This document shows, piece after piece, positions 197 to 43,400 of a stretch of DNA of 64,000 nucleotides. The position numbers and the translations under genes are program-made. Position 1 is the stretch's first letter. The number at the start of each line of letters is the position of its first letter. The DNA comes from Desulfuromonadales bacterium. GTDB taxonomy: Bacteria; Desulfobacterota; Desulfuromonadia; Desulfuromonadales; Geopsychrobacteraceae. The stretch lies in contig JAFGEL010000065.1 in assembly GCA_016931615.1 (NCBI GenBank), positions 1 through 64,000 on the forward strand. Direction: 5' to 3'. The notes beneath the pieces were generated by a model. It was not told where the DNA came from and did not search any database. It was given only the letters and a program-made list of their open reading frames with translations.

Positions 197-211
197 TCAG
201 CTGTTGACTTC

Positions 212-308
212 AGGCCGCTTCCCTACGCCGGTATCAACCGGATCAGGTTCAAAGGGTCGTTCTGCTGTTCACAGAACTCTCAGTAACAATGACGCCCCTA
301 GCGAAACT
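212..308 (-). ncRNA. TPP riboswitch (THI element)
   Basis: Minus strand contains CTAGGGGCG...CTGAGA...ACCCTTTGAACCTGATCCGGTTGATACCGGCGTAGGGAAGC, the conserved TPP aptamer core. Confidence 0.95.
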
Positions 309-443
309 ACAATACCTGATAAAATTAACAGTCTGAGATTGCTTAAGTCAACATGTAAGCGGAAACCCTGCAGCAATTGATTGATTTGTTATGTTTTGAT
401 CGCGTAGGATAGCAGCTTTGTTAACTGGCCGGAAAGGATACCC

Positions 444-32454: not shown

Positions 32455-34110
32455 ATGTCGGAGCATGATAGAATTTTCGTCATTGGACATCGTAATCCCG
32501 ATACGGATTCAATCTGCAGCGCAATTGCCTATGCCGAGCTCAGACGTCAACAGGGGTTGGCCGGTGTTCAGCCGGCCCGCGCCGGAAACATCAATCACCA
32601 GACCCAGTTCATTCTGGATCATCTCAATGTCGCTATCCCCCAGCTTCTCTCCGATGTGCATCCACGTATCAGGGATGTGGTGACCGAGAAGGTCATATCG
32701 ATTCATGAGTCAGCCCCCATGTCAAAAGCGATTGAGTTGTATCACAGGCATCACATCAGGATGCTGCCCGTTGTCGACGACGACCAGCGTCCGAAAGGGC
32801 TGCTGATGCTCAAGCAGGCAACGGAGTTCTTCCTGGTACCTGCCGAGCCGCAAAAGCTGCGGCGCGTTCGGGCTACCCTTAATTCGATTCAAGACTGTCT
32901 GGGAGCACAAGCTTATTCTCTGATAGATGCGGACCGGCTCGATGATTTAAACCTTTATGTGGGGGCCCGCCGGGAAGCGAGCTTCAAGCGTTGGGTTGAC
33001 GAAATCATTCCTGAACGGACAATTCTGATCACTGGTGACCGGCCCGGCATCCAGACTCTTGCCGTTGACGCAGGTGTTCGTTTGCTGATTATTTCCGGCG
33101 GCTCCAAAGTAGAACCGGAACTGCTTGAACGTGCTGAGGAAAAAGGTGTTTCAATTCTTGTCAGTCAATATGATACGGCCAACTGCGTCTGGTTGACGCG
33201 GATGGCGATGCCGGTCGGTTCGTTGATTGATGATAATTATATGGTCATTAAACCGAACGAGTTGTTGGAGGATTTACGCTTCAAGCTCGCTCACGGCAAG
33301 CAGGCAGGAGCAATTGTCTGTTCACCTGACGGGCGGGTTGAAGGCATTGCGACGAAAAGTCATTTGATCAAAACGTCGCCACTTAAGCTGATTCTGGTTG
33401 ATCATAATGAGCTCTCACAGGCCGTTCCGGGAGCTGATAAAGTTGAAATTATCGAAGTGATCGACCATCATCGGCTGGGCAATTTCCATACTGACCTGCC
33501 GATCAGGTTCATCAATCAACCCCTGGGCAGTACCTGCTCGCTCGTGGCGACTCTTTACCAACAGGCCGGAATTGAACCGGATAAGAAGGTTGCCGGCTTG
33601 CTGCTGGCGGGGCTGTTGTCGGACACGGTAATTCTGAAGTCACCGACCGCAACTGATATTGATCGCCAACTGATTCCCTGGCTGGAAAAGCTTTCCGGCC
33701 TCGATCACCAGGAGTTCGGTTCCCAGCTGTTCGCGGCCGGAAGTCCAATGGCCAGTGGTACTCCGGCGCGTAAGCTGATCTTTACCGATTTCAAAGAGTA
33801 CCAGGTCAATGATCATGTGCTCGGTCTCGGGCAGGTTGAAGTGGTCAACTTTCATACCTTTTATCAGCGTCAGGACGAGTTGACGCAAGAGTTGAAAAAA
33901 ATCCGCGATGAAAAAAATTACGAACTTGCAGCCCTGTTGGTCACGGACATTGTCATGGAGACCAGTCTGCTGGTCACTGCCGGACCGAATGAACTGCCGT
34001 TTATTATCGGTTATCCTCAGGAGGGTGAAAATCTCTACCGTTTAAAGGGCGTTTTGTCGCGTAAAAAGCAGTTGGTTCCTCATCTGCTGAAAGTTTTCAA
34101 AGGGGCGTGA
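32455..34110 (+). CDS. Manganese-dependent inorganic pyrophosphatase, CBS/DRTGG-regulated family II
   Basis: [24 protein letters not shown] regions, [32 protein letters not shown]. Confidence 0.95.
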
Positions 34111-36161
34111 CGTTGAAGAAGACGCTCCAGCTCTTCGGCGCTGGTAGTCGCGGGTAAACAACTTTTGGCTGTGCATAACCAGGCGGTGGTGCGGTTGTTC
34201 AGGCACGTCTTGTCAGCACACCAGGGAACAAGCCTGCCGATTTCATTGGTTTCGTCGACGATCAGAGTCAGCAGTTGCGGCCGGAACTGACTGACCACCG
34301 AATGCCACTTAGCATCCAATTGTTTACTGTTGCGGACAATGACCAGGGTCAATTGCTCTGATAATGAAAGGTCAAGAGCCTGAAGCAGAAAGGCAAAAGC
34401 GGTCGGATAGCTGTCGGCCTGGCTGAGATGGAGCTCAAGAAGCTTGTTTCCCTGGGTTTCCAGCGTCTTCTGCCCTGTCAGCCTGGCGAGGCGCAGCAGA
34501 TTGAAAGCGGTGACCGAAGCTGCGGCCGGGACCGCACCATCCTGCCGGTTGCGGCCTCTTCCCATGCCCGGGGTGAAGGCCCGCTCCGCATCAAAGTACT
34601 CCCCATTGTTGCCGCGAAATTTTTCATCGCAGATTTTATTGAGTTTCAGGGCTGTTTCAAGATAACGCCGGTCAGGTTCAGCTAAAAAAAGCTCGGTCAG
34701 GCCACGAATAAAATAAGCATAATCTTCGTGAAAGCCTTCAACCGCGGTTTCGCCATCACGATAGCGTCGCTTGAGTGTTCCGTTGGTGAAAAGGGTGTTG
34801 TTGATAAAATCGACGGCTGCGCGGGCTGCGCTCAGGTAATCGTCACGCTCAAAGAGCAACCCGGCCCGAGCGAGTGAGGCGATCATTAAACCGTTCCAGC
34901 CGCTCAATATTTTATCGTCAAGGTGGGGATGTGGTCGTCGCTCGCGATTGTTCAGCAGCTTGGTCCTGATCTGATTCAATTGTGCAGACAGTTCGTCTTC
35001 ACTCAGCCGATTCTGTTCGGCCAGTTGTTTCAGGGACCGGGTGCGATAAAGGATATTACGTCCTTCGAAGTTGCCTTCAGCGGTTATATTGTAGACGGTT
35101 GAAAATAAATTTTTCTCTTTCGCCGACAGAACTGAACCAAGCTCATTCAGGGACCAGAGATAGTAAGTTCCTTCGGCTCCCTCCGAGTCGGCATCCTCGC
35201 CACAGTAAAAGCCGCCCTGAGGATGTTGAAGTTCGCGAAGTACGTAATCGAGAACATCTTCGGCGGCCCGTTTGAAATGTTTTTGACCGGTGACCTGCCA
35301 GGCGTCCAGGTAGGCGTCACTGATCAGGGCCTGATCGTAGAGCATCTTTTCGAAGTGTGGAACCAACCAGCGCTCGTCAACCGAATAACGATGAAGTCCA
35401 CCTCCCAGCTGATCGGTTATCCCCCCCTGTGCTATGCTGTTCAGGGTTTCAACTGCCATCCACTGAGACTCGGCATTGTCGAAGCGTTGGGCCAGCCGCA
35501 GCAGTAGTGCAGGGTTATGGGGTTGCGGGAACTTAGGCGGTGATCCGAAGCCTGCGTGCTTGGTGTCAAAAAGACTGCGATAGCTGTGTAGTACATTGCC
35601 AAGGATTCTTTGCGACAATTCCCGTTCGCTTCGGGTATTTTCAAACTCTTCCAGGGCTTGCGAAAGTTGCTTGCCCGCGTTGATCAGATCTTCCCGTTGA
35701 GACGCCCAGAGTTCAGCAACTTTATCAATAATGTCAGTAAAACCTGGAGAACGTCCCTGCGCCAGTTTTGGAACGTAGGTCATGGCGTAAAAGGGGAGTC
35801 CCGTCGGAGTTAAAAATAGATTCAGGGGCCAGCCTCCATGACCATTCATCATATGACAGGCATGCATGAAACTGGCGTCGATATCGGGACGCTCTTCTCT
35901 GTCAACCTTGATGGAAATACAGTGCTGATTGAGTTTGGTGGCGATCTGCTCATCTTCAAAGGATTCATGAGCCATGACATGGCACCAGTGGCAGGTCGAG
36001 TAACCGATAGAAACGAATATCGGTTTGTTCTCTTCCTCAGCTTTTTTCAGGGCCTCCTCACACCAGGGATACCAGTCAACCGGATTCTCGACATGCTGCA
36101 ACAGGTAGGGACTCTTTTCGTCTTTGAGATGATTCAATTTATTGGGAGCAGTCGTCATCAT
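34080..36161 (-). CDS. Thioredoxin domain-containing protein (YyaL/SPATA20 family)
   Basis: [62 protein letters not shown]. Confidence 0.96.
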
Positions 36162-36228: not shown

Positions 36229-36300
36229 AAAAAATAGCCCCGCGTCAGGAGGGAGAACACGAGGCAAAAATCTTTCTTGAGAGAGAGTTTACTTACCTTT
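36229..36300 (-). ncRNA. Candidate small RNA A (about 72 nt) with anti-Shine-Dalgarno terminator loop
   Basis: TTGACT-N16-TATAAT at 36334..36307 (minus); terminator GCCTCGTGTT-CTCCCTCCT-GACGCGGGGC-TATTTTTT; no supported ORF; contains CTCTCTCTC. Confidence 0.6.
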
Positions 36301-36306
36301 AAGGCA

Positions 36307-36334
36307 ATTATACTCAGATAAAAATTAAAGTCAA
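36307..36334 (-). promoter_or_regulatory. Sigma-70 promoter of candidate small RNA A
   Basis: Minus strand TTGACT-N16-TATAAT. Confidence 0.65.
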
Positions 36335-36370
36335 TTAAATAATAAAAAAAAATAAATATAGATAAATGAG

Positions 36371-36446: not shown

Positions 36447-36767
36447 TTATTTAATATGGCATTCCTTGCATTTGGTGGGACCCTTTTGAGATTCTTTGTG
36501 GCAGTCTTTGCAAAGCTGGTGAAAAGCATCTTTTGCTTGCGGTGCTTGCGGATCGACGCCATGACAACTCTTACACTGGGCAAAATCACCCGTGTGGTGG
36601 CAGGTTGCGCAATCGGTGTAAGACTGATGTGCAGCATGTTGGAACGTCACGGTTCCCATTTTGGGTGTGTACTTGACTTCTGGTGGCCCCTGGCTTTCAG
36701 CAACAACAAATGTCGCCACTGATAGTGCAAGAATCACACTTGAACAAAGAATCCAGAACTTAGACAT
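36447..36767 (-). CDS. Small periplasmic multiheme cytochrome (c3/c7 family, four CxxCH)
   Basis: Signal peptide; CATCH, CKSCH, CKDCH, CKECH; SD AAAGGAGGT before ATG at 36767. Confidence 0.92.
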   Translation of the reverse strand: MSKFWILCSSVILALSVATFVVAESQGPPEVKYTPKMGTVTFQHAAHQSYTDCATCHHTGDFAQCKSCHGVDPQAPQAKDAFHQLCKDCHKESQKGPTKCKECHIK

Positions 36768-37015
36768 GTTTGACCTCCTTTTAATGATTGTCGAGTGGTA
36801 TCTGGTGCGTGACTGAACTATTTCATATTTTTTGGGGTGTTTCATCAGACATCGCATTGAATGTCGTAAGATGTCGACAAAGAATTACCTGATTTCAGTC
36901 AGTTGGGAAAATTATCGGAAAGACCAGAGCCAAGCATGGCGAACGGGTATTCCTATGTTTACAGCATGACCGGCACTCTGTTAGAATCCTGCAATCCTCT
37001 TTTTTAAGGCGTTTC

Positions 37016-43121: not shown

Positions 43122-43289
43122 CCATGCGGCAGCAAAGTGTCAGCATGGCTTATTTCCGCCACAATGCGCCATTTTTGAATATTTTTACTCAAGCAATGAA
43201 TGGTTATGCTCTTCCAGGAAACAGCTCAATGCCCGATGTGAAGGGGAAAACACCAGTTTATCAGGCCTGTCGGATTAAAGTCTGAAATT

Positions 43290-43303
43290 GGTACAGGGTT
43301 TGC
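43290..43303 (+). promoter_or_regulatory. Candidate sigma-54 promoter
   Basis: TTGGTACAGGGTTTGCTTT: GG at 43290-43291, N10, GC at 43302-43303. Confidence 0.55.
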
Positions 43304-43314
43304 TTTAGGTTGAA

Positions 43315-43400
43315 CAGAATATACACAGCTCTCTCTCGTCCAACTTGATATTTGGACTTTAGCCCCGTTCCCGCCTCCTCCGGAACGGGGCATTTTTTTT
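43315..43400 (+). ncRNA. Candidate small RNA B (about 86 nt) with anti-Shine-Dalgarno terminator loop
   Basis: Begins 12 nt after the sigma-54 GC; CTCTCTCTC at 43329-43337; hairpin GTCCAA-cttgatat-TTGGAC; terminator GCCCCGTTCC-CGCCTCCTCC-GGAACGGGGC-ATTTTTTTT. Confidence 0.5.
43362..43400 (+). terminator. Strong plus-strand intrinsic terminator with CGCCTCCTCC loop
   Basis: Perfect 10-bp stem followed by A then T8; no T tract on the opposite strand. Confidence 0.95.

Follow-up and report, generated by a model that had tools for sequence, protein, structure and literature searches.

The alpha-r14/NfeR1 and cuckoo RNAs of the alphaproteobacteria carry an ultraconserved CCUCC-type anti-Shine-Dalgarno (anti-SD) motif in the loops of hairpins whose stems differ in sequence; in the alpha-r14 RNAs there are three such hairpins, CCUCCUCCC being unpaired in every one, and for NfeR1 the silencing of translation by pairing at the initiation region has been shown (PMC10746234). 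NmsRA and NmsRB of Neisseria meningitidis, an Hfq host, have two UC-rich anti-SD regions, in a single-stranded linker and a loop, and repression of their targets has likewise been shown (PMC5362039). A further motif, the atoC RNA (Rfam RF01733), comes from the same bacterial class as the locus described here and was reported by Weinberg et al. (2010; PMC2864571); it has been filed as probably cis-regulatory. For Desulfuromonadales or Geobacter we found no base-pairing small RNA (sRNA) family described in the open-access literature, which does hold work on CsrA and predicted CsrB-like sRNAs.

The sequence studied, positions 1-64,000 of contig JAFGEL010000065.1 (assembly GCA_016931615.1) from a Desulfuromonadales bacterium, is the 64,000-nt stretch referred to below as the window. 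An earlier note, made from the letters alone, had proposed an unannotated sRNA on its minus strand, and all of the coordinates and sequences given there for the element were right on direct reading (Table 1). The promoter it called near-consensus, TTGACT-N16-TATAAT, agrees with the consensus at 11 of 12 positions and is the joint-best promoter match of the region, and the A/T-rich stretch in front of it, which in relatives ends in a conserved TTTTTAG, is a possible UP element or factor site. The terminator reads GCCTCGTGTT-CTCCCTCCT-GACGCGGGGC and then the T tract on the minus strand, with the same 10-bp, wobble-containing stem, 9-nt loop and U tract as had been described, and the loop CUCCCUCCU is indeed the reverse complement of a consensus Shine-Dalgarno (SD) sequence, AGGAGGGAG. 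The RNA was assigned to the minus strand because it is there alone that a T tract comes after the hairpin, and because three stem pairs are U-G, which become A-C mismatches on the opposite strand. The statement that no supported ORF lies between promoter and terminator also stands, the sole ORF spanning the element being an unsupported one of 76 amino acids with a TTG start; no start codon in the 5' part of the element is conserved across relatives.

Table 1. Positions of the element, its neighbours and a second RNA in the window.
Feature	Positions	Strand	Basis or remark
DHH-type inorganic pyrophosphatase-like gene	32455..34110	+	tblastn with window protein; function named from sequence
DUF255/Thioredox_DsbH protein, downstream neighbour	34080..36161	-	starts 68 nt beyond the sRNA hairpin
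Predicted small RNA, ~72 nt	36229..36300	-	promoter, terminator and conservation
U tract (T tract in DNA)	36234-36229	-	direct reading; conserved in relatives
Intrinsic terminator hairpin, 10-bp stem	36237..36265; arms 36265-36256 / 36246-36237	-	reading, family alignment, covariation
Exposed 9-nt loop CUCCCUCCU (DNA CTCCCTCCT)	36255-36247	-	complementary to AGGAGGGAG (anti-SD)
Single-stranded CUCUCUCUC, second pyrimidine-rich candidate pairing site	36279..36287	-	type-A conservation
-10 hexamer TATAAT	36312-36307	-	direct reading; TATAAT in 20/23 aligned type-A loci
Promoter spacer	16 nt, between -35 and -10	-	direct reading
-35 hexamer TTGACT	36334-36329	-	direct reading; promoter scan; TTGACA in most relatives
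A/T-rich stretch upstream of -35	36335..36360	-	in relatives ends in conserved TTTTTAG
Terminator-like hairpin belonging to the cytochrome	36402-36370	-	
Class III cytochrome c (PF02085), upstream neighbour	36447..36770	-	
Sigma-54-type -24/-12 of second RNA, TTGGTAC-N5-TTGCT (GG-N10-GC)	43288-43304	+	
Second anti-SD-loop RNA, same design (CUCUCUCUC, hairpin, terminator loop CGCCUCCUC)	~43315-43400	+	5' end inferred

The element resembles the alphaproteobacterial RNAs in its loop motif but has, unlike alpha-r14, one stable hairpin, which is the terminator, with the loop CUCCCUCCU and a CUCUCUC linker, and it does not belong with the alpha-r14/cuckoo RNAs. It has the linker-and-loop arrangement of NmsRA/NmsRB, yet these form three stem-loops and come from an unrelated lineage, and no sequence relation to them was found. 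When Rfam was searched with the element no family reached its gathering threshold: the nearest, the atoC RNA, scored 20.9 bits (E 0.086) against a gathering score of 50 and the other matches were at chance level, which rules out a known Rfam family, and the proteins of the window do not match those of the 30 best atoC loci, so that the neighbourhood is not the same either. The element represents a previously undescribed family of predicted non-coding RNAs, absent from Rfam. Elsewhere in the window, a TPP riboswitch scores above its Rfam gathering score (203-309, minus strand).

There is one copy of the element in its own genome (blastn). Matches by blastn were found in 27 of 60 relatives, all within the same Geopsychrobacteraceae-like family, and the covariance model of the hairpin, R1, matched 42 of the 44 family genomes, at least 34 of the 44 at E <= 1.4e-9. 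Carriers include Malonomonas, with Malonomonas rubra DSM 5091, as well as Pelovirga terrestris M08fum and Desulfuromusa MAGs. The aligned family loci have in common TTGACWTTAAT, TATAAT, CTCTCTC and a near-unchanged terminator, and CCTCCTG in the loop is invariant (28/28 family loci). The 5' half has CUCUCUC in type A and, in genus g5 (type B), a GCUCGACGGAGC hairpin. Across 23 type-A loci, with the window's own left out, mean ungapped identity was 93% for the -35 region, which is kept as the 11-nt block TTGACWTTAAT, and 85% for the -10, whereas the promoter spacer reached 40%, the sequence further upstream 34% and that downstream 29%, a pattern that argues for selection on the promoter and the RNA and not on the DNA stretch itself. 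Identity was 67% over the A/T-rich 20 nt before the -35 and 34% in the block before that, and CTCTCTC was present in 19 and CTCTC in 22 of the 23 type-A relatives. The earlier note would have counted a loop and promoter that were not conserved beside conserved flanking genes against its proposal; the outcome was the opposite, as nothing else between the genes is as well conserved as promoter, CUCUCUC and loop.

Across the order Desulfuromonadales, the covariance model of the hairpin matched 107 of 136 genomes; of ~389 genomes sampled evenly from elsewhere in the phylum it matched 5, all weakly. At E <= 1e-5 the matching genomes were 72 from the order and one other from the class, a sharp boundary at the order. 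In an alignment of 88 order-wide matches, 98.1% of stem cells were paired, the stem held 119 double-change cells where shuffles gave 32.1 +/- 6.2 (none of 500 reaching 119) and CCTCC was kept in 85 of the 88 loops. Because the alignment was fitted to the model and the model favours CCTCC, the stem and loop figures are both biased in this direction. Slid controls and unrelated genomes speak against such bias as the full explanation. Inside the family alone covariation was weak (3 double-change cells; 6/500 shuffles), and it turned strong only when the order-wide matches were added, on the model-fitted alignment. Hairpins extracted by pattern, for which pairing and a CTCC loop had been required, were left out of the evidence. 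The Desulfuromonadales family that had earlier been offered as an inference exists by the covariance model, and its paralogues and tandem copies make it bigger than had been suggested.

A CAUGUUCCC hairpin makes up the 5' half in several further families of the order. This half varies from branch to branch, so that what all branches have in common is the terminator hairpin alone. The gene order of the window, XRE regulator - cytochrome - sRNA - DUF255 - pyrophosphatase, recurs in whole or part around matches in other order families (e.g. L074, L266, L267, L272, L274, L281 and L293), and the matches with a differing 5' half are therefore positional orthologues. In the window, as in several other order families, the element lies directly upstream of DUF255 in the same orientation, the position expected of a 5' leader or attenuator of that gene in which the hairpin terminates or lets transcription read through. 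DUF255 is, however, gone from beside the sRNA in most family genomes, where the pyrophosphatase gene is the convergent next neighbour and the element and its promoter nonetheless persist, which largely refutes a leader and excludes it as the general role; nor was a conserved anti-terminator alternative structure seen, the 5' part being variable, and we regard such a role as highly improbable. Genome comparison at the sequence level shows that promoter and terminator are conserved, that the stem covaries while the loop stays fixed, that the element is restricted to the lineage and that it is independent of the downstream gene.

The hairpin is the most conserved part of the element, and similar CCUCC loops are found on some 3'-UTR terminators in the order, as they might be if the element did no more than terminate transcription efficiently or end the cytochrome operon, its C/U-rich loop being kept for termination efficiency or for protein binding. 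Against this, a conserved promoter belonging to the element lies immediately upstream, a separate terminator-like hairpin serves the cytochrome gene and the dispersed copies of the hairpin adjoin other genes. Moreover, none of the 109 intrinsic terminators sampled over 340 kb of one related genome had a CCTCC loop, which rules out such a loop as a general property of terminators, and we think an explanation by termination very unlikely. Folding of the single sequence gave a modest MFE z-score of -1.0 and was uninformative as evidence; support for the predicted structure of the sRNA is comparative, not thermodynamic.

We propose instead, with a probability of about 0.8, that the element is a trans-acting sRNA which would repress translation by pairing with SD regions. 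In keeping with the anti-SD sRNA class, it has its own promoter and intrinsic terminator and no ORF, its single-stranded anti-SD motif is more constrained than the surroundings, it is not tied to one downstream gene, and Hfq is encoded in its own genome, as in 40 of the 41 genomes searched. RNA polymerase with the housekeeping sigma factor would start near 36300 and be halted by the hairpin near 36229; the resulting RNA, ~72 nt long, would have a U-rich 3' end of the kind that Hfq binds. The terminator loop CUCCCUCCU would then pair with purine-rich, AGGAGG-type SD regions of several mRNAs, probably assisted by the single-stranded CUCUCUCUC, and by hiding the ribosome-binding site would lower the translation and stability of the mRNA. 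NfeR1 and NmsRA/NmsRB provide precedents for this mechanism. Transcription, the use of Hfq, the mRNA partners and the repressive outcome are the inferred parts of the account, and the variable 5' part, the modest folding score and the target results below weigh against it.

In the window, the energy of loop-to-start-site pairing correlated with ordinary SD strength (r = 0.76), so the loop would act as a generic anti-SD; any specificity would have to lie in the flanking bases, in abundance or in Hfq. Only two perfect 9-nt AGGAGGGAG sites stand before an ATG in the own genome, the better candidate being that before livM; this site is real there, but when looked for in the livM of relatives it was not kept, and livM is therefore not proposed as a conserved target. 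The upstream cytochrome was ruled out as a special target, its SD being the generic AAGGAGG. The loop also complements AGGA and GGAGG motifs in general, and Geobacter has CsrA and predicted CsrB-like sRNAs (PMC11934962), so that a C/U-rich loop acting as a sponge for purine-rich RNAs away from start sites, such as GGA-rich, CsrA-titrating sRNAs, can be envisaged. The extended CUCCCUCCU nevertheless matches start sites of the AGGAGG type more closely than it does single GGA motifs, and we consider a sponge very unlikely.

A second predicted RNA, built like the putative sRNA, is present in the window (Table 1), preceded by a sigma-54-type promoter and lying between the gene for an AtoC/NtrC-type sigma-54 activator (response regulator) and an aldehyde ferredoxin oxidoreductase gene. 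It has an extra hairpin and a fold z-score of -4.6, and the arrangement of regulator and then RNA is kept in four relatives (G008, G009, G015 and G052). In one family of the order, f12, the hairpin model matched up to 11 dispersed sites per genome (multi-copy loci of f12 and its neighbours: L062, L066, L068, L259-L265 and L285-L289), and many f12 RNAs have two anti-SD motifs, one in a linker (UACCUCCUAA, TACCTCCTAA) and one in the terminator loop. Another family, f14, has two or three hairpin RNAs in tandem, each with its own terminator (L069, L070, L270, L290 and L291). In other families, one transporter-like gene likewise has a CCTCC loop in its 3'-UTR terminators (L136, L137, L139, L140, L142 and L144-L147), possibly a 3'-UTR-derived sRNA.

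Of 279 genomes from the class, 187 carry the atoC RNA by the Rfam model (L102-L131 are among the RF01733 matches), and a divergent atoC-like copy is present in the own genome (L079). It differs from the element in its stem, 5' hairpin and gene neighbourhood but resembles it in being a short RNA with a promoter-like start and a CCCUCCU terminator loop followed by U7. On account of this promoter-like start, the hairpin and the CCCUCCU-loop terminator with U7, we infer that the atoC RNA is probably a free-standing sRNA rather than a cis-element. The own genome also contains a terminator with the loop CCCCCCCCTCC (L246:2698-2728; G000:C95, ~106.7 kb) that matches the atoC model weakly and is possibly another C-rich-loop sRNA.

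A wider reading, which we put forward tentatively and at somewhat less than even odds, is that a single module underlies a class-wide system of RNAs with an anti-SD terminator loop. To it would belong the ancestral syntenic copy (the 36229-36334 element), copies beside AtoC-type regulators that are driven by sigma-54, sets of as many as 11 per genome in tandem or dispersed form, and the atoC RNA as a misfiled sRNA. Different promoters would bring different signals to the same pairing motif, and the RNAs would compete for overlapping mRNA start sites. The Desulfuromonadales, an order of metal- and sulfur-reducing bacteria that encode Hfq, are drivers of metal and sulfur cycling and of extracellular electron transfer. 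What emerges for them is a defined RNA family that is present in cultured strains and has a clear, testable loop; the Rfam atoC motif, too, deserves a fresh look as a possible sRNA rather than a cis-element.
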